The notes beneath the pieces were generated by a model that worked only from the letters and a program-made list of their open reading frames with translations, was not told the origin of the DNA and did no database searches. From contig QLUR01000009.1 in the NCBI GenBank assembly GCA_018725565.1, forward strand, positions 1-64,000: 64,000 nucleotides of DNA. Direction: 5' to 3'. Every line of letters starts with the position of its first letter. Positions within the stretch are counted from its first letter, which is position 1. The position numbers and the translations under genes are program-made. Positions 42,862 to 51,637 of the stretch are shown here, piece by piece. The stretch comes from Bacillota bacterium (lineage in GTDB: Bacteria > Bacillota > Dethiobacteria > Dethiobacterales > Dethiobacteraceae).

Positions 42862-43224
42862 TTGAAGCTTTTAAAGATACAACAGATTCTAGAGGCTGAG
42901 ATTCTGGTAGAAGCCGATAATATGGATAAAGAGATCAGGGTAGCCTTCAGCGCCGATCTTATCAGTGATGTTTTGGCTATGTGTTGTGAGCAAGCCTTGT
43001 TGATTACAGGGATGACTCATGTGCAGGTAATCAAAGCGGCCAGGATCTGCGATCTGTCGGCGGTAGTTTTTGTGCGGGGCAAACGTCCTGGCCCGGAAGT
43101 GATTGAGCTGGCAAAACACAACGGAATACCTGTTCTGTTAAGTCGTCTGACCATGTATGAAGCGTCTGGCCTGCTGTTTTCTGCCGGTTTGTCCGGAATC
43201 AACCAGATTTCTGACCCCCATTAG
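42862..43224 (+). CDS. DRTGG-domain protein 1
   Basis: The 120-residue protein is a stand-alone DRTGG domain (Rossmann-like, as in the middle of phosphotransacetylase-associated and CBS-DRTGG proteins). It includes a LITGMTHVQVIKAARICDLSAVVFV core and a KHNGIPVLLSRLTMYEASG tail. These domains are thought to be regulatory or ligand-binding. The start is TTG 42862, 6 bases after GGAGGAG; the nearby ATG 42858 is out of frame. First of four tightly spaced genes with the ATPase, FeS protein and second DRTGG protein. Confidence 0.75.
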   Translation: MKLLKIQQILEAEILVEADNMDKEIRVAFSADLISDVLAMCCEQALLITGMTHVQVIKAARICDLSAVVFVRGKRPGPEVIELAKHNGIPVLLSRLTMYEASGLLFSAGLSGINQISDPH

Positions 43225-43235
43225 GAGGGTATAGG

Positions 43236-43691
43236 GTGAACGAGCAATCCAGGGAGGAACAATCGCTTTTTTTGGAATTTCCCTTGGAATCTCTTGATTT
43301 TATGCGAGCCGGTGAAGCTTCAAGCGAGCTCAAGCAGCGCTTAAAAAAATTGGGTGTAAAGCCTGAACTTGTGCGCAGGGCGGCTATAGCCGCCTATGAA
43401 GCGGAAATGAATGTAATTATACATGCCCGGAAGGGTACTATGCGGGTGGAGATTACTCCTGCCCGGCTGCTGATCCTGGTGGAAGACGAGGGGCCGGGGA
43501 TTATTGATATTGAACAGGCGATGCAAGAAGGGTTTTCCACTGCCTCTCAAGCGATAAGAGAATTAGGCTTCGGCGCCGGGATGGGGTTATCCAACATCAA
43601 GCGTTGCGCGGATGATTTAGTGATTCAGTCCACTCCCGACCAGGGAACAAGACTGCAGATCACTATAAACATTGAGAAAAGTGACAGGTGA
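43236..43691 (+). CDS. RsbW-like ATP-binding (HATPase) regulator
   Basis: The 151-residue protein is a lone GHKL ATPase domain. The N box is in AAYEAEMNVIIHARKG, G1 is VEDEGPGIIDIEQA and G2 GFGAGMGLSNIKRCAD. Small proteins of this kind (RsbW/SpoIIAB/RsbT-like) are serine kinases that act on partner proteins. Here it lies between a DRTGG protein and an H-cluster-type FeS protein, overlapping the latter by 4 bp, so a role in relaying the hydrogenase or redox signal is likely but inferred. Confidence 0.82.
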   Translation: MNEQSREEQSLFLEFPLESLDFMRAGEASSELKQRLKKLGVKPELVRRAAIAAYEAEMNVIIHARKGTMRVEITPARLLILVEDEGPGIIDIEQAMQEGFSTASQAIRELGFGAGMGLSNIKRCADDLVIQSTPDQGTRLQITINIEKSDR

Positions 43692-45034
43692 TCAAGATGA
43701 GCATCTACTATCATTCTGTCCGTCTCGACAGGGAAAAGTGCAAAGGGTGTGTTAATTGCATCAAAAAATGTCCTACGGAAGCTATCCGGGTACGCAGGGG
43801 CAAGGCAGAGATAAATGAGGAAAAGTGCATAGACTGCGGAGAGTGCATCAGGGCTTGTCCTAACCAGGCCAAATACGTGGAGACAGACTCCCTGGAAATG
43901 CTTAAATCATATCGCTGCAGCGTGGCATTGCCGCCCCCGTCATTATTTGGCCATATGCGGGCTACCGTACCACCGGATCAAGTGCTTTCAGCCCTTACCG
44001 ACATTGGTTTTGACAGTGTTTTCGAAGTGGCGGTGGGAGCCGATGTTGTAAGTTCTGAGATCAAACGTTTATTCAGGTCCGGAGAAATCAGCGGCCCAAT
44101 TATCTCCTCCGCCTGTCCGGCGGTAGTACGGTTGATTCAGGTACGTTTTCCTGATTTGACAGGGCGGGTCATGCCCTTATCCCCGCCTACAGAAGTTGCG
44201 GCTCAGCTTGCCCGGCAGGAGATGCTAAGCCGTCTGGGGTGTGCGGCAGGAGATATCGGTATTTTCTTCCTTACCCCCTGTGCGGCCAAGGTTACTTCTG
44301 TAAAAGCTCCTGTGAGCGGTATCCCGTCAAACATAGACGGTGCCATCGGCGTGCACCAGATCTATCCTCAACTTAACCGGTGTCTCAAGAAGCCTCATCA
44401 AAAACTGCTGAAATCTCTGGCGTCTGGTTCAGGTATGGCGTGGGGGATATCAGGCGGCGAGCGGTTGGCCGTAGGGTTGGAGAACTATCTGGTAGTCGAC
44501 GGGATCCATAACGTGATTAGCGTCCTGGAAGAACTGGAGATGGGGCACCTGGGGGGGATAGATTTTATTGAGGCCCAGGCCTGCACCGGGGGGTGCGTAG
44601 GGGGATATCTGCATGCTTTAAATACTTTTGTGGCCCGGGTGCAGCTGCGCAAGCTGGCCCGGGAGCTGGACAAAAAAAAGTCGCCTTCGGAAAAGCAACA
44701 CTCTCAGTTGGCCTGGCTGGACTGCCAGGTGCCCCGTATCACAGTTCAGCCGCGGCAAATAGTATACCTGGATACCGATATCAACAAAGCTATGATCAAG
44801 ATGGCCGACGCGGAGAGGGTTGCACAACTGCTGCCGGGATTGGACTGCGGCGCTTGTGGTGCACCAAACTGCAAGGCCTTGGCCGAAGATATCGTTTTGG
44901 GAAAAGCCAAGGAAACAGACTGCATCTTTGTCCTGCGGGAGAGGATTATGGACCTGAGTCTGCATGTCTATGATTTAGCGAAAATAAGGCCACCGGCTAT
45001 GAATCAGCCTGGCGGCGAAGGGAGTGAAAGCTAA
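43688..45034 (+). CDS. H-cluster-type [FeFe]-hydrogenase-like protein (HydS/sensory type)
   Basis: The 448-residue protein has two 4Fe-4S sites (CKGCVNCIKKCP, CIDCGECIRACP), an H-cluster domain and a C-terminal 4Fe-4S domain (LDCGACGAPNCKALAEDI...DC). The H-cluster cysteines are kept: C143 (SSACPAV), C198 (LTPCAAK), C299 and C303 (ACTGGCVGG). Position 142 is Ala instead of the proton-shuttle Cys, and the L2 Glu is missing (KVTSVKAP). This pattern fits slow or sensory hydrogenases such as HydS. GTG 43688 is given; ATG 43697 is an alternative. Confidence 0.85.
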   Translation: MIKMSIYYHSVRLDREKCKGCVNCIKKCPTEAIRVRRGKAEINEEKCIDCGECIRACPNQAKYVETDSLEMLKSYRCSVALPPPSLFGHMRATVPPDQVLSALTDIGFDSVFEVAVGADVVSSEIKRLFRSGEISGPIISSACPAVVRLIQVRFPDLTGRVMPLSPPTEVAAQLARQEMLSRLGCAAGDIGIFFLTPCAAKVTSVKAPVSGIPSNIDGAIGVHQIYPQLNRCLKKPHQKLLKSLASGSGMAWGISGGERLAVGLENYLVVDGIHNVISVLEELEMGHLGGIDFIEAQACTGGCVGGYLHALNTFVARVQLRKLARELDKKKSPSEKQHSQLAWLDCQVPRITVQPRQIVYLDTDINKAMIKMADAERVAQLLPGLDCGACGAPNCKALAEDIVLGKAKETDCIFVLRERIMDLSLHVYDLAKIRPPAMNQPGGEGSES

Positions 45035-45381
45035 TGAAACTGACAGAAGCAATCAAAGAACTGGCCCTCACAGTTGTTGCCGCGGTGGATATAGAATGTG
45101 AGATCAGCGGCGGTTATGTCTCAGACCTGTTAAGTAATGTTATGGCCCGTGCCGCTGCCGGGCAGGTTTGGATTACCCTGCAGGGACATCAGAATATTGT
45201 GGCCGTAGCCGTGTTGCTGGAACTGGCAGCAGTCATTGTCGCCGGCGGGGTGCAGCCTGATGAGGAAACTAAACAGAAGGCTGTTTCTGAAGGAGTAACC
45301 CTTCTTGCCACTCCGCTGCCGATATTTGAGGTTGCCGGGCGTCTTTACCAGTTGGGGCTGCGAGGCGGTGACAACGCTTAA
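45034..45381 (+). CDS. DRTGG-domain protein 2
   Basis: The 115-residue protein resembles the DRTGG protein at 42862 in size and fold, with SGGYVSDLLSNVMARAAAGQ, IVAVAVLLELAAVIVAGGV and GVTLLATPLPIFEVAGRL. The ATG overlaps the stop of the FeS protein by 1 bp. Two DRTGG proteins flanking one ATPase and one FeS sensor suggest they act as a pair, perhaps as phosphorylated partners of the ATPase; this is inference. Confidence 0.72.
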   Translation: MKLTEAIKELALTVVAAVDIECEISGGYVSDLLSNVMARAAAGQVWITLQGHQNIVAVAVLLELAAVIVAGGVQPDEETKQKAVSEGVTLLATPLPIFEVAGRLYQLGLRGGDNA

Positions 45382-45535: not shown

Positions 45536-46033
45536 ATGTTTGAAGGCGCTTGTGCCTGTGCCCAGCAGCTGCCGAACAACGGTGATTATGACCGGCTGGC
45601 GGAGTTGTTGAATAAGTATAAACAACAAAAAGGTGCTTTGATTCCGATGTTGCAGGAAACGCAAAAGTTATTCGGTTATTTGCCGGAACCGGCTATGGAG
45701 CAGATCGCCAGGGCCTTTGCTGTGCCGCTTGGCCATATTTACGGTGTTGCTACTTTTTATGCTCAATTTTATCTTGAGCCGCGTGGCCGGCATGTGATCA
45801 GGGTTTGTCAGGGAACGGCCTGCCATGTGCGGGGCTCGTCCAAAATTCTCGATCGGGTCAAACAGGAACTTGGGATCAATGCCGGGGAGACCACCAAGGA
45901 TTTCCGTTATACCATTGAACCGGTGGCTTGTATAGGTGCTTGCGGTTTGGCGCCGGTTATGATGATTAATGAGAACACCCACGGCCGCCTGACGCCGGAA
46001 ATGATGTCGAAGATCTTGCTCAAATATGAGTAG
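45536..46033 (+). CDS. NuoE-like 2Fe-2S subunit of NADH-linked hydrogenase (HydC)
   Basis: The 165-residue thioredoxin-like ferredoxin carries one 2Fe-2S cluster with cysteines in VCQGTACHVRGSSKI and EPVACIGACGLAPVM. In trimeric [FeFe]-hydrogenases this subunit passes electrons between NuoF-like and HydA subunits. The helical N-terminus (LAELLNKYKQQKGALIPMLQET) is typical. ATG 45536 follows AAGGAGG. Confidence 0.92.
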   Translation: MFEGACACAQQLPNNGDYDRLAELLNKYKQQKGALIPMLQETQKLFGYLPEPAMEQIARAFAVPLGHIYGVATFYAQFYLEPRGRHVIRVCQGTACHVRGSSKILDRVKQELGINAGETTKDFRYTIEPVACIGACGLAPVMMINENTHGRLTPEMMSKILLKYE

Positions 46034-46041
46034 GAGAGCCG

Positions 46042-46590
46042 ATGGAAGAGTTGTCTTTGCATATTCTTGATCTGGTTCAGAACTCTCTGGGTGCGGGTGC
46101 CGGCTGTATCGAAATCGTAATTGAGGAAAATACGGACCGCGACCTGTTCCTGGTGGAAATCCATGATGATGGAAAGGGGATGAGCCGTGAATTTGTAGAG
46201 CGTGTCCTAAACCCTTTTACTACGACACGAACTACCCGACGGGTGGGTCTGGGACTGTCTCTGCTGGAAATGGCAACCCGGCAATGCAATGGCGGAATTG
46301 AGATAGATTCAGAACTAGGGAGAGGAACCAAGGTAAGGGCGGTTTTTCAGCACAGCCACTGGGACCGTGCGCCGCTTGGCAATATTAAGGCCACCTTAAT
46401 AACTATCATTAGTGCCAACCCGCTGGTGCGTCTGGTCTACCGTCACCGGGTTAACAACCGGAGTTTTTCTTTGGATACTGAGGAAGTAATAACAGTTTTA
46501 GGTGATATACCCCTTAATCATATGGCAGTCCTGGACTGGTTGGAAAACTACCTGAGCCAGGAATTGAACGAGCTATACGGAGGAGGATAG
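46042..46590 (+). CDS. Stand-alone histidine-kinase-type ATPase protein
   Basis: The 182-residue protein has a GHKL domain without a dimerisation/His domain: N box HILDLVQNSLGAGAGCIEIVI, G1 IHDDGKGMSREF, G2 RRVGLGLSLLEMATRQCNGG, and the GRGTKV end. About 60 residues of unknown type follow (NIKATLITIISANPLVRLVY). Genes of this kind commonly sit between nuoE- and nuoF-like genes of clostridial hydrogenases. It may phosphorylate a partner or regulate assembly. It is 8 bp after nuoE and 3 bp before the next gene. Confidence 0.82.
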   Translation: MEELSLHILDLVQNSLGAGAGCIEIVIEENTDRDLFLVEIHDDGKGMSREFVERVLNPFTTTRTTRRVGLGLSLLEMATRQCNGGIEIDSELGRGTKVRAVFQHSHWDRAPLGNIKATLITIISANPLVRLVYRHRVNNRSFSLDTEEVITVLGDIPLNHMAVLDWLENYLSQELNELYGGG

Positions 46591-46593
46591 ACG

Positions 46594-46965
46594 GTGGCGA
46601 CACTAAAGAGTTTGGATGATTTGCGCAAACTGCGCGAGCAGGTTCAGGGAGAGATTACTGAACGTTTTGGCGGTGAAGTGAAGATTATCGTGGGGATGGG
46701 TACCTGTGGCATTGCAGCCGGGGCCCGTGACGTGATGACGGCAATATTGCAGGAGCTGCGCACCCGCAATATTCAGGCTGCGATTACACAAACAGGGTGC
46801 GTGGGTATGTGTGAAAGGGAACCTTTGATAGACATTGTGCGGCCCGGCGAAGAAAGGATAACCTATGGCAGAGTTACGCCTGTGGATGCCAAACGGCTGG
46901 TAGCGGAACATGTTGTTCACGGCCGGGTAGTGGAGGATCTGGTTGTAGCGAGGTTTGAGGAATAA
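46594..46965 (+). CDS. Thioredoxin-like 2Fe-2S ferredoxin
   Basis: The 123-residue protein has cysteines in VGMGTCGIAAGARDV and QTGCVGMCEREPLIDIV, the spacing of the thioredoxin-fold 2Fe-2S family. It probably feeds electrons to or from the NuoF-like subunit encoded 27 bp downstream, or is an auxiliary subunit of the hydrogenase. GTG 46594 is the start. Confidence 0.88.
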   Translation: MATLKSLDDLRKLREQVQGEITERFGGEVKIIVGMGTCGIAAGARDVMTAILQELRTRNIQAAITQTGCVGMCEREPLIDIVRPGEERITYGRVTPVDAKRLVAEHVVHGRVVEDLVVARFEE

Positions 46966-46992: not shown

Positions 46993-48786
46993 ATGGAATT
47001 AGTTCGTGCCCACGTCTTGGTTTGCGGAGGTACCGGTTGCGTTTCTTCTGGTTGTCATAAAGTGCAAGAAGCGCTGCACCGGGAGCTGGCGAAGCATAAG
47101 ATTGAAAAAGAAGTCAAGATTGTGGAAACCGGCTGTCATGGTTTTTGTGAGAAAGGCCCTCTGGTAATAGTCTACCCGGAAGGGACCTTTTATACCCTGG
47201 TGCAGCCCGAAGACGTCCCCGAGCTGGTAGAGGAGCATCTGTTGAAAGGGCGCATTGTTCGCCGGCTCTTATACACTGAACCTATGACGCAAAAGCAGGT
47301 GCCCGGCTATAAAGAAATCGTATTTTATAGAAAGCAGCAGCGTATTGTGCTGCGAAACTGCGGCTATATCGATCCCGAAAAGATAGAAGAGTATGTGGCC
47401 AGGGACGGCTATGCCGCTTTGGTTAAGGTTTTGGGAGAGATGACCCCTGAACAGGTTATTGAAGAGATAAAAGCATCGGGTTTGCGCGGCCGGGGCGGCG
47501 CGGGGTTCTCCACTGGCCTGAAGTGGGGCTTTTGTGCCAAAGCTGCCGGCGACAAGAAATTTATCATCTGTAACGCTGACGAAGGAGACCCCGGAGCCTT
47601 TATGGACCGGAGCATCCTGGAGGGTGATCCGCACAGTGTTTTGGAAGGCATGCTGATAGGTGCTTACGCTATTGGCGCCGATGAAGGGTATCTTTATGTC
47701 CGGGCGGAGTATCCATTGGCGATCAAGCGTTTGCGGATCGCCCTGGAGCAGGCGGAAGCGATGGGTTTGATGGGAGAAAATATTCTGGGGACCGGTTTCA
47801 ACTTGCGCCTTCATATTAAGGAAGGGGCGGGTGCTTTCGTCTGCGGTGAGGAAACTGCGCTTATGGCTTCTATTGAGGGCTACCGGGGGATGCCGCGCCC
47901 CAGGCCTCCATTCCCGGCCATCAAAGGTTTATGGGACAAGCCTACAAACATCAATAATGTGGAAACATTTGCTAATGTCCCCCATATTATCCGTAACGGC
48001 GCCAGCTGGTTTGCGGCCATGGGGACGGAAAAGAGTAAGGGGACCAAGGTTTTCGCCCTGACCGGCAAAGTAAAGAATACCGGTTTGGTTGAGGTGCCTA
48101 TGGGGATTCCTATGCGGGAGATAGTTTTCGATATAGGGGATGGTATCCTCGACGACAAGAAATTTAAAGCGGTCCAGATCGGCGGTCCTTCCGGCGGCTG
48201 CTTGCCGGAAGAGAAGATGGATCTGCCGGTTGATTATGAATCGCTGACCGGGGCCGGGGCCATTGTGGGTTCAGGCGGCTTGGTGGTAATGGATGAGACC
48301 ACTTGCATGGTGGATGTGGCTAAATACTTTCTTGACTTTACCCGCCGGGAATCTTGCGGTAAATGCACACCTTGCCGTGAGGGCACCCAAAGGATGAGGG
48401 AGATGCTGGAAAGATTCAGCAAGGGTCAGGGGTCGCTGGATGATCTTGATATTTTGGCCAACCTGGCACAGACGATTAAAGATACCTCTCTGTGCGGCTT
48501 GGGACAAACCGCTCCTAACCCCATCATAACTACTTTACGCTATTTCCATGATGAATATGTAGCACACATCATAGATAAAAAATGCCCTGCGGGTGTTTGC
48601 CAGGAACTCTTGACTTATCTGATTTTAGTTGATATGTGTAACGGTTGCACTGCCTGCGTCAAGGTTTGTCCCGTTGATGCAATCAGCGGCGAGAAAAAGC
48701 AACCCCATATTATCAATCAACAAAGATGTATTAAATGTGGCGCCTGTCTGAGCAAATGCCGCTTCGACGCCATAAGCCTCCAGTAG
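46993..48786 (+). CDS. NuoF-like NADH/FMN subunit of [FeFe]-hydrogenase (HydB)
   Basis: The 597-residue flavoprotein has an N-terminal 2Fe-2S ferredoxin domain (CGGTGCVSSGCHKVQ, TGCHGFCEKGPL). The NADH/FMN domain has LRGRGGAGFSTGLKWGF and NADEGDPGAFMDR. The NuoF 4Fe-4S site is ESCGKCTPCREGTQRM, and two C-terminal 4Fe-4S sites are CNGCTACVKVCP and CIKCGACLSKC. This is the HydB layout in electron-bifurcating hydrogenases, where FMN splits electrons between NAD and ferredoxin. ATG 46993 follows AAGGAGG. Confidence 0.94.
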   Translation: MELVRAHVLVCGGTGCVSSGCHKVQEALHRELAKHKIEKEVKIVETGCHGFCEKGPLVIVYPEGTFYTLVQPEDVPELVEEHLLKGRIVRRLLYTEPMTQKQVPGYKEIVFYRKQQRIVLRNCGYIDPEKIEEYVARDGYAALVKVLGEMTPEQVIEEIKASGLRGRGGAGFSTGLKWGFCAKAAGDKKFIICNADEGDPGAFMDRSILEGDPHSVLEGMLIGAYAIGADEGYLYVRAEYPLAIKRLRIALEQAEAMGLMGENILGTGFNLRLHIKEGAGAFVCGEETALMASIEGYRGMPRPRPPFPAIKGLWDKPTNINNVETFANVPHIIRNGASWFAAMGTEKSKGTKVFALTGKVKNTGLVEVPMGIPMREIVFDIGDGILDDKKFKAVQIGGPSGGCLPEEKMDLPVDYESLTGAGAIVGSGGLVVMDETTCMVDVAKYFLDFTRRESCGKCTPCREGTQRMREMLERFSKGQGSLDDLDILANLAQTIKDTSLCGLGQTAPNPIITTLRYFHDEYVAHIIDKKCPAGVCQELLTYLILVDMCNGCTACVKVCPVDAISGEKKQPHIINQQRCIKCGACLSKCRFDAISLQ

Positions 48787-48809: not shown

Positions 48810-50540
48810 ATGGATATGATAACTGTAAAGATTGACGGAAAAGACATTCAGGTGCCAGCAGATGCCACGGTGTTGACAGCTGCGCAGATGGCTGGTATCG
48901 ATATCCCCACACTGTGCTATTATCCTGGCTTGCGGCCGGAGGGAGCTTGCCGGGTCTGTGCGGTAGAAGTGGAAGGGGTCAAAAGCCTGGTGGCGAGCTG
49001 TGTGTATCCGGTTACCCCGGGAGCGGTGATACACACCAATACCCCCCGGGTCAGGAATGCCCGCCGTACTATTGTTGAGTTAATGCTGGCCAATCATCCC
49101 AACAGCTGCCTGACTTGTGAACGTAACAACAACTGTGAGCTGCAGCAAATAGCTTTCAAAGTGGGAGTGCGGAAGGTTTCTTTTAGCGGTGAGCGCAGGG
49201 AATGGCTCAAAGACGAGACCAGCCCCTCGGTGGTGCGTGATCCCGAAAAATGTATCCTCTGCGGCCGCTGCGTGAAGGTCTGTAACGATATACAGTCTGC
49301 GGGTATTTTAAATTATAACAACCGGGGATTTGACACCCTTGTAGCGCCGGTTCTGAACCGGGGACTGGGCAGCACTTCCTGCGTGGCCTGCGGACAGTGC
49401 AGCGTGGTGTGTCCAGTGGGTGCCATCACTGAGAAAAATGATGTTGACGAGGTGTGGCGCGCTCTGTCAGACCCCAAGCTTCATGTGGTGGTGCAAACGG
49501 CTCCTGCGGTGCGGGTAGCCATTGGAGAGGAATTCGGTCTCACTTCGTCGGTTGAAACGGGCAAGCTGGTAGCGGGGTTGCGAAGACTGGGTTTTGACCG
49601 GGTATTCGACACAGATTTTACTGCAGACCTGACCATAATTGAAGAAGCTCATGAGCTTTTGCACAGAATACAAAACGGTGGCACGTTGCCCATGATTACC
49701 TCTTGCAGCCCTGGCTGGATTAAGTTTTTGGAGCACAACTATCCTGCATTGCTGCCGCACCTGTCTACCTGCAAGTCGCCTCAGCAGATGTTTGGAGCCC
49801 TGGCAAAAAGCTACTATGCTGATAAGATGGGCTTAAAACCTGAAGAGATTTACGTCGTATCGATTATGCCCTGTACAGCCAAGAAGTATGAGGCAAAACG
49901 TCCGGAAATGAGCCGGGACGGTATTGTCGACGTAGATGCCGTGTTGACGACACGGGAGCTAGGGCGGATGTTTGAAGAAGCGGGGATAGATTTTGCCAAA
50001 CTGCCTGACGAAGAATTTGATGAACCCATGGGAATTTCCACCGGGGCGGCTGTTATCTTCGGGGCTAGCGGCGGTGTGATGGAGGCTGCTCTGAGGACGG
50101 CGGTGGAGGTTATTACCGGTAAGGAGCTGCACGATATCGAGTTTGCTCAGGTGCGCGGCCTGGAAGGCATTAAGGAAGCGACACTGGATGTAGCCGGTCA
50201 AAAGGTTAAGGTGGCGGTTGCCAACGGCTTGGCTAATGCCCGTAAGCTGATGGATCTTCTGGCCGCGGGTCAGGCCGATTACCACTTTATCGAAATCATG
50301 TCCTGCCCTGGCGGCTGTATCGGTGGCGGCGGGCAGCCTCTGCCGGTGGATATGGAGGTGCGCTTAGCCCGTATGAAAGCCATCTATCAAGCCGACCGGG
50401 ATCTGCCCTTGCGGAAATCACATGAAAATCCGGCCGTAAAGGAGCTGTACAAGACTTTTCTTGGTAAGCCCCTGGGTCACAAATCTCACGAACTGCTGCA
50501 CACAAGCTATACTTGCCGGCCTCTGTTCAAAGAATGTTAA
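48810..50540 (+). CDS. hydA: [FeFe]-hydrogenase catalytic subunit HydA
   Basis: The 576-residue protein contains, in order, a 2Fe-2S domain (CYYPGLRPEGACRVC), the His-Cys 4Fe-4S site (HPNSCLTCERNNNC), two 4Fe-4S sites (CILCGRCVKVC, CVACGQCSVVC) and the H-cluster. L1 is TSCSPGW (297-303), L2 MPCTAKKYE (from 353) and L3 EIMSCPGGCIGGGGQP (from 495). The second L1 position is Ser where many enzymes have Cys. With the NuoE- and NuoF-like subunits it forms an NAD(H)- and probably ferredoxin-dependent complex for H2 production or uptake. No signal peptide. Confidence 0.96.
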   Translation: MDMITVKIDGKDIQVPADATVLTAAQMAGIDIPTLCYYPGLRPEGACRVCAVEVEGVKSLVASCVYPVTPGAVIHTNTPRVRNARRTIVELMLANHPNSCLTCERNNNCELQQIAFKVGVRKVSFSGERREWLKDETSPSVVRDPEKCILCGRCVKVCNDIQSAGILNYNNRGFDTLVAPVLNRGLGSTSCVACGQCSVVCPVGAITEKNDVDEVWRALSDPKLHVVVQTAPAVRVAIGEEFGLTSSVETGKLVAGLRRLGFDRVFDTDFTADLTIIEEAHELLHRIQNGGTLPMITSCSPGWIKFLEHNYPALLPHLSTCKSPQQMFGALAKSYYADKMGLKPEEIYVVSIMPCTAKKYEAKRPEMSRDGIVDVDAVLTTRELGRMFEEAGIDFAKLPDEEFDEPMGISTGAAVIFGASGGVMEAALRTAVEVITGKELHDIEFAQVRGLEGIKEATLDVAGQKVKVAVANGLANARKLMDLLAAGQADYHFIEIMSCPGGCIGGGGQPLPVDMEVRLARMKAIYQADRDLPLRKSHENPAVKELYKTFLGKPLGHKSHELLHTSYTCRPLFKEC

Positions 50541-50839: not shown

Positions 50840-51637
50840 ATGATGAGCGTGTTTGCAGAACAGATTGATGTACCTATGCTTACCCGGTATCAGGCAGATT
50901 TGCATATTCATACCGTGCTTTCTCCATGCGCCAGTCTGGATATGGGACCTGCCAACATTGTTCGTGCGGCCCGCCGCCTGGGAACAGGTATTATAGCTAT
51001 TGCCGATCATCATTCGGTGGCCAATGTACCCGCAGTGGCGGAATACGCGGGTGAGGGACCGCCCTTGGTTATTCCCGGTATCGAGGTGCAGACCAAGGAA
51101 GAGGTTCATTTGCTCTGTCTCTTCCCGGATTTGAATACGGCGGATGATTTTGCCGCACTGATCAGGGATAAGCTGCCGCCTGTACGTAACCGGCCGGACC
51201 TTTTTGGGGAACAGGTAGTAGTCAACGGGGCGGAGGAGATTCTCTACTTTGAGGAAATCCTCCTTGCTGGTTCGGTTGAGATGACGGTAGAAGCTGTGGC
51301 AAGGGAAGTAATCAAGAGAGAGGGTTTGTTGATCCCTTCCCATGTTGACAGGCCTGCTTACAGCCTGCTGGCCAATTTAGGTTTTCTCCCTCCGGGCTTG
51401 ACAGTTCATGCCTTGGAAATATCACGACCTCAGCACATAGATAAGCTGCTGACCGAGCATCCCAATTTAAAGGATATCGTCTTTATCACTTCTTCGGACG
51501 CTCATTTTCTGAGTCAAATGGATACTAAATATGTAACTGTGTTTTATTTGGCCGGGCTGACTTTTGGGGAAATCAAGCTGGCTTTTGGAGGCAAGGCGGG
51601 GAGAAGGGTTTTGATCGAAGCAAGAGATACGAAATAA
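50840..51637 (+). CDS. PHP-domain phosphoesterase
   Basis: The 265-residue protein is a PHP metal-dependent phosphoesterase with ADLHIHTVLSPCASLDM, IAIADHHSVANVPA, PGIEVQTKEEVHLLCLF and a late TSSDAHFLSQM. PHP proteins of this size are often near clostridial hydrogenase and DRTGG genes. The substrate is unknown; nucleoside 3',5'-bisphosphates are a known target of some relatives. The start could be ATG 50840 or an ATG 12 codons later, before LTRYQADLHIH. Confidence 0.85.
   Translation: MMSVFAEQIDVPMLTRYQADLHIHTVLSPCASLDMGPANIVRAARRLGTGIIAIADHHSVANVPAVAEYAGEGPPLVIPGIEVQTKEEVHLLCLFPDLNTADDFAALIRDKLPPVRNRPDLFGEQVVVNGAEEILYFEEILLAGSVEMTVEAVAREVIKREGLLIPSHVDRPAYSLLANLGFLPPGLTVHALEISRPQHIDKLLTEHPNLKDIVFITSSDAHFLSQMDTKYVTVFYLAGLTFGEIKLAFGGKAGRRVLIEARDTK

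Follow-up and report, generated by a model that had tools for sequence, protein, structure and literature searches.

The window, the whole 64,000-nucleotide stretch of DNA analysed here, encodes HydS, a protein whose defining residues, architecture and genomic context identify it as a group D (M2e) [FeFe]-hydrogenase. HydS itself is ordinary for group D, a kind of protein already known, and the part worth following is the evidence on its partners. On balance, we favour a reading in which HydS would be the sensory subunit of a previously undescribed module, DRTGG1-HATPase1-HydS-DRTGG2-PHP-HATPase2. The H-domain would directly control a SpoIIAB-like ATPase and DRTGG adaptors, and the whole would form a self-contained redox/H2 switch joined to bifurcating hydrogenases, to formate dehydrogenase-like enzymes or to Rnf, surviving in one family without an H-cluster. 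The class raises the question of how a PAS-less group D hydrogenase passes its signal on: its interaction partners were still unidentified in the 2026 literature (PMC13104023) and its signal transduction mechanism has been described as unknown (PMC11376134). The nearly invariable linkage reported below and three types of natural fusion name testable group D partners, and a degenerate lineage (family f32) sets the signalling role apart from H2 chemistry.

The hydS gene and its residues

HydS is encoded at 43688-45034 of the forward strand by an open frame of 448 aa, which starts with GTG (an ATG lies three codons further in) and is free of internal stops. A Dethiobacter MAG provides its closest sequence (82%). 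Compared with the closest relative, HydS gives a dN/dS of 0.086; a pseudogene or frameshift was ruled out on the open frame and this value. Eight N-terminal cysteines (C18-C57) account for two [4Fe-4S] clusters, and are followed by the H-domain, with loops L1 (139-146), L2 (194-206) and L3 (293-306), and by a C-terminal [4Fe-4S] motif (C387/C390/C395/C412). Pfam identified PF02906 (H-domain, 3e-26) and PF13237 (N-terminal), both above cut-off, and assigned the C-terminal FeS domain to PF04060 (8.1e-13). All 16 cluster cysteines are invariant across 93 group D homologues, which together with the low dN/dS shows that these features did not arise by chance. The AF2 model (pLDDT 71, below 50 in the E258 loop) confirmed by Foldseek the [FeFe]-hydrogenase fold and no more than that.

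CpI numbering was transferred by profile-profile alignment of HydS with the group A HydA encoded in its operon. Loop L1 reads I-S-S-A142-C143-P-A-V, where A142 corresponds to the shuttle cysteine C299 of CpI and C143 to CpI position 300. A reading of the sequence alone had noted SSACP with the ligand Cys143 kept and Ala142 in place of the shuttle cysteine, and both the open frame and the alignment bear this out. HydS residues C299 and C303 are likewise intact in L3, as had been stated, and this loop also includes E295. An alternative shuttle cysteine was sought in homologue and profile-profile alignments, and none aligns. The proposed parallel with HydS of Thermoanaerobacter mathranii (TamHydS) holds as well, the alanine there being A137 (PMC10407848). 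Ala142 is no oddity, though, since alanine is the class norm at this position (76/93 homologues).

Loop L2 reads L-T196-P197-C198-A-A-K201-V-T-S204-V-K, with T196, K201 and S204 at the positions of M353, K358 and E361 of CpI. The claim that it lacks Met-Pro was half right: the methionine is changed to Thr196, but the proline is kept (TPC). The L2 glutamate is indeed missing, with Ser204 at the E361 position, but E361 is not, as had been taken, one of the catalytic proton-path glutamates (E279/E282). This position varies within group D (A in 31, E in 28 and S in 15 of 83 sequences), so that a glutamate in L2 is non-diagnostic of class. Nor is a proton path missing. The path E252-E289-S249-D265 of TamHydS is exclusive to group D (PMC8163306, PMC10407848, PMC13104023), and HydS has it complete as S255/E258/D271/E295, at one constant offset from S249/E252/D265/E289 of TamHydS; the loss of the group A path therefore does not mean loss of proton transfer. 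Among homologues, E258 is conserved in 82/83, E295 in 83/83 and D271 in 79/83. In TamHydS, the change E252D leaves almost no H2 oxidation. The presence of K201, E258 and the maturases led us to reject degeneration of the [2Fe] site for the window HydS.

Class assignment

The definition of group D (M2e) combines a pair of N-terminal clusters with a Cx2Cx4Cx16C motif at the C-terminus and the absence of PAS; it also includes loss of the CpI C299 equivalent (mostly to Ala) and replacement of M353 with Ser/Thr (PMC8163306, PMC10407848, PMC13104023). HydS combines two N-terminal [4Fe-4S] clusters with an H-domain carrying C143/C198/C299/C303, as expected for group D, and the spacing of C387/C390/C395/C412 is exactly Cx2Cx4Cx16C. 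No PAS was found in HydS by Pfam or among the NCBIfam matches listed, and the same Pfam scan does detect PAS in L145 and L146, two group C proteins also encoded in the window genome. Thr or Ser occupies the T196 position in 91 of the 93 homologues. The group A hallmarks, shuttle cysteine C299 and Met353, are replaced in HydS by A142 and T196, and the fused PAS that marks group C is missing.

In the maximum-likelihood tree, HydS and 46 cassette-linked homologues form one clade (support 100), apart from PAS-type group C (99), group A (100), group B and the sigma54-fused group C proteins; the tree was built without TamHydS, to whose published positions the HydS residues were matched. HydS thus falls outside the group A enzymes and was not placed among high-turnover hydrogenases. 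Its description as a sensory-type H-cluster protein stands, in the sense that its class is that of TamHydS. The idea that the C-terminal 4Fe-4S domain replaces a PAS domain had to be abandoned: TamHydS is itself a group D protein with a C-terminal [4Fe-4S] cluster and without PAS, and PAS-bearing group C has this C-terminal cluster as well as PAS, so that no replacement took place (PMC8163306, PMC13104023). That HydS is a group C (PAS-type) protein with recent PAS loss is extremely improbable. A C-terminal [4Fe-4S] cluster and a missing shuttle cysteine are common to group C too (PMC8163306), but the two classes form separate clades with the supports given above, HydS has E258 and D271, which are found in group D only, and L145 and L146, the group C proteins that its genome also encodes, fall elsewhere in the tree.

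HydE, HydF and HydG are all encoded in the window genome, and hence a normal H-cluster can be made. A relative of HydS at E <= 1e-30 occurs in 191 of 399 genomes sampled across the phylum, some of these matches being non-group-D.

Other H-domain proteins were encountered alongside. In L124:11560-13785(-) and L144:12347-14575(-), an H-domain with a C-terminal FeS domain is joined in a single protein to a sigma54 AAA+ activator and a Fis-type HTH (confirmed), and similar ORFs of 741-778 aa are present in L140, L113 and L117. In four loci the gene for such a protein lies shortly before the group D cassette; these proteins are apparently one-protein H2-responsive transcription activators. Two shorter H-domain proteins of 366 and 357 aa, L147:8521-9621(-) from the window genome and L150:8077-9150(+), have the L1 motif IASPC and lie outside groups A-D, on a branch whose length is 3.1. 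L147 has no C-terminal FeS domain.

Operon and conserved cassette

The genes around hydS are closely spaced on one strand (+), with DRTGG1-HATPase1-HydS-DRTGG2 upstream of HydC-HATPase2-HydD-HydB-HydA. DRTGG1 (42862..43224; PF07085, 7.6e-10) is a stand-alone DRTGG-domain protein of 120 aa, and HATPase1 (43236..43691; PF13581/PF02518) a SpoIIAB/RsbW-like GHKL ATPase of 151 aa, whose gene overlaps hydS by 4 bp. On the other side, a 1 bp overlap joins hydS to the gene for a second stand-alone DRTGG-domain protein of 115 aa, DRTGG2 (45034..45381; PF07085, 1.6e-5). They are followed by HydC (45536..46033), a NuoE-like [2Fe-2S] subunit (PF01257, 1.6e-54); HATPase2 (46042..46590), a histidine-kinase-like ATPase domain of 182 aa (PF02518, 1.9e-15); HydD (46594..46965), a small [2Fe-2S] thioredoxin-like protein (PF01257, 1.2e-4, below cut-off; NF041612, 1.5e-10); and HydB (46993..48786), a NuoF-like NADH/FMN subunit (PF01512, PF10589). 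HydA (48810..50540) is the catalytic group A [FeFe]-hydrogenase of bifurcating type, matching NF040763 (group A6) at 906 bits (cut-off 765); its nearest solved chain is A. woodii HydA1 (7q4v). Its L1 motif, TSCSPGW, has Ser where CpI has the cubane-ligand cysteine C300, and is common to most cassette HydA proteins and to 7q4v. A PHP-type metal-dependent phosphoesterase (50840..51637(+); PF02811, 3.4e-4, below the gathering score) is encoded 299 bp after hydA. In the window genome this gene stands at the operon 3' end; in related loci of otherwise the same order it lies between DRTGG2 and HydC.

The cassette is strongly conserved. Among loci with enough flank to be counted, HATPase1 adjoins HydS in 77/77, DRTGG2 in 75/77, and DRTGG1 stands beside HydS in 73/77. 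PHP is a neighbour in 70/75 loci, HATPase2 in 62/71 and HydB in just 49/63. A histidine-kinase-like ATPase flanking group D genes has been reported before (PMC8163306, PMC3608648, PMC3561251), and our literature search found no paper linking DRTGG proteins to hydrogenases. Scans for promoters and terminators stayed at chance level, and the module contains no gene for a DNA-binding output.

In some relatives the cassette precedes a molybdopterin formate-dehydrogenase-like enzyme (L107, L108, L135 and L165; divergent in L132), and in L136 it precedes Rnf genes. This placement is consistent with control of redox balancing in general. The loci L107:852-3566(-), L108, L132, L135 and L165 combine HydC/D/B with the molybdopterin (formate dehydrogenase-like) enzyme and have no HydA; they likely encode a bifurcating formate dehydrogenase that the same sensor would control.

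These neighbourhoods also bear on whether HydS could instead serve the bifurcating HydABCD complex as a low-rate accessory, in catalysis or in electron transfer. The hydS gene directly precedes HydC/D/B/A in the same orientation, and TamHydS is bidirectionally active, though slow (PMC10407848). HydB, however, is missing from 14 of the 63 cassette loci, the cassette is also found before the formate-dehydrogenase-like or Rnf genes, in family f32 it persists without any hydrogenase subunit, and the strict partner of HydS is HATPase1. We regard an accessory role as improbable.

Candidate partner proteins and natural fusions

The closest solved relatives of HATPase1 by sequence are the anti-sigma F structures 1l0o/1til. 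Its match to TIGR01925 (3.3e-14) reaches 53 bits against an equivalog cut-off of 135, which ruled it out as a SpoIIAB ortholog and leaves it a superfamily relative only. The N, G1 and G2 boxes are invariant in 80 homologues, so HATPase1 should bind ATP. The AF2 model of DRTGG1 (pLDDT 91) matched best in Foldseek to the DRTGG structures 2ioj and 3l2b and then, more weakly, to HPr kinase 1ko7; the PF07085 score of DRTGG2 lies at the gathering cut-off (25.1 vs 25.2 bits). Among homologues, S35 and T49 are invariant in DRTGG1 and S34, T48 and N54 in DRTGG2, the Ser/Thr residues being at matching positions in the two proteins. We hypothesise that HATPase1 phosphorylates the DRTGG proteins; the invariant threonine may be structural instead of a phospho-acceptor.

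Natural fusions join these proteins in three combinations: DRTGG1-HATPase1 (L114, L115, L063, L072, L124 and L140), HATPase1-HydS (L137 and L138) and HydS-DRTGG2 (L113, L117 and L143). Pfam confirmed one HATPase-HydS and one HydS-DRTGG case; in the L124 DRTGG1-HATPase1 fusion it shows the HATPase part only, the DRTGG part being a phmmer match of 66 bits. The HydS tree implies one or two origins for the DRTGG1-HATPase1 fusions and a single origin for each of the other kinds. Gene fusion is standard evidence of physical or functional partnership, and the three kinds make HATPase1 and the DRTGG proteins the best candidates for group D interaction partners. HATPase1, DRTGG1 and DRTGG2 are candidate signalling partners of HydS.

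The relationship to anti-sigma factors opens another route for the signal, in which HATPase1 would hold an unlinked sigma factor and be released by DRTGG acting as anti-anti-sigma, with a transcriptional output. The closest solved structures and the TIGR01925 match agree with this, but the conserved cassette showed neither a sigma factor nor a STAS gene, and the score of 53 vs 135 bits sets HATPase1 apart from SpoIIAB orthologs. We consider this route unlikely, albeit the most serious of the competing explanations.

Family f32 and the distribution of maturases

Family f32 (L160-L164) has kept DRTGG1-HATPase1-HydS-DRTGG2-PHP-HATPase2, but its locus no longer has HydC, HydD, HydB or HydA. HydS is the sole PF02906 protein found in the five genomes; HydG gave no match in 5/5 of them, and HydE and HydF none in the four tested. 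The f32 proteins have Gln at the L2 lysine, which in CpI contacts a cyanide ligand of the [2Fe] site, and Gln at the proton-path glutamate as well. They are the clearest exceptions among the 93 homologues and are joined by L135 alone (Lys to Arg, Glu to Asp), in whose genome no maturases were detected. All 16 cysteines are nevertheless kept in f32, and dN/dS of 0.03-0.07 indicates purifying selection. Our reading of these sequences is that the signalling function outlived H2 chemistry in this family.

The argument depends on several losses coinciding, not on the absence of maturases alone. HydE/F/G were also not found in G011, G097, G132, G187, G052, G235, G130, G259, G042, G062, G016 and others, in which group A/B [FeFe]-hydrogenase genes look intact, and G235 is a single-contig genome. 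Gaps in the assemblies, divergence of the maturases or maturation by a different route are possible causes. Since intact-looking hydrogenase genes occur without maturase matches, maturase absence alone is weak evidence of an empty site.

For the window HydS, a protein without the [2Fe] subcluster, working as a plain 4x[4Fe-4S] redox sensor, is highly improbable. Such a protein is plausible in f32, given the sole PF02906 gene, the absent maturases, the loss of both Lys and Glu to Gln, the retained cysteines and the low dN/dS. In the window HydS, however, K201 and E258 are intact, and its genome encodes HydE/F/G and other, coexisting H-cluster proteins.

Proposed mechanism

HydS is probably a slow H2/redox sensor and not a metabolic enzyme, with its signal passing via HATPase1 and the DRTGG proteins to an output on redox-balancing systems. 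TamHydS is slow, H2-responsive and changes structure upon H2 (PMC8163306, PMC10407848, PMC13104023), and by analogy HydS would bind and slowly oxidise H2 at a normal H-cluster, with protons moving through the group D path E258-E295-S255-D271. An H2-sensing function in the cell is putative even for TamHydS (PMC13104023), and we infer it for HydS. HATPase1, as a SpoIIAB-like ATPase or Ser/Thr kinase, would receive the signal together with the two DRTGG proteins, on which it may act by kinase or sequestration chemistry; the PHP phosphoesterase and HATPase2 would be further members of the module. The output would tune NADH/ferredoxin redox-balancing systems, here HydABCD, and could be post-translational, on the adjacent NADH/ferredoxin enzymes, or transcriptional, via a sequestered sigma factor.

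Comparison with known systems

HATPase1 belongs by sequence to the same superfamily as the anti-sigma kinases SpoIIAB/RsbW (1l0o, 1til), and DRTGG1 by fold to that of the DRTGG domains 2ioj and 3l2b. Unlike SpoIIAB, HATPase1 scores far below the equivalog cut-off, has no sigma factor or STAS partner nearby and is paired with an [FeFe]-hydrogenase.

With group A HydA (A. woodii HydA1 7q4v, T. kivui 8a6t and the window HydA) HydS shares the H-domain fold and the cubane region. Group A proteins differ in keeping the shuttle cysteine, M353, M497 and the group A proton path; they carry N-terminal [2Fe-2S] and small-subunit domains and form a metabolic, high-turnover class. Group C (M2f), represented by TmHydS and by L145 and L146 of the window's own genome, resembles HydS in its N-terminal 2x[4Fe-4S], H-domain and C-terminal [4Fe-4S] cluster, and in that the shuttle cysteine is not conserved across the class, but has a fused PAS, forms a separate clade and does not conserve the group D proton path (PMC10407848).

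The nearest counterpart is TamHydS of T. mathranii (group D/M2e), which agrees with HydS in domain order, Cx2Cx4Cx16C motif, lack of PAS, alanine at the shuttle position and a hydroxyl residue at the CpI M353 position (PMC8163306, PMC10407848, PMC13104023), Ser in TamHydS and Thr in HydS. The TamHydS charges R30/R32/K35/K58/D378/E392/D393/D403, which surround the clusters, are conserved in HydS at constant offsets, whereas R42 is Lys46 and S384 is Ala392. In the window, PHP has shifted to the last position of the operon; in both organisms the gene for the group D protein lies upstream of a bifurcating group A hydrogenase and is flanked by a histidine-kinase-like ATPase.
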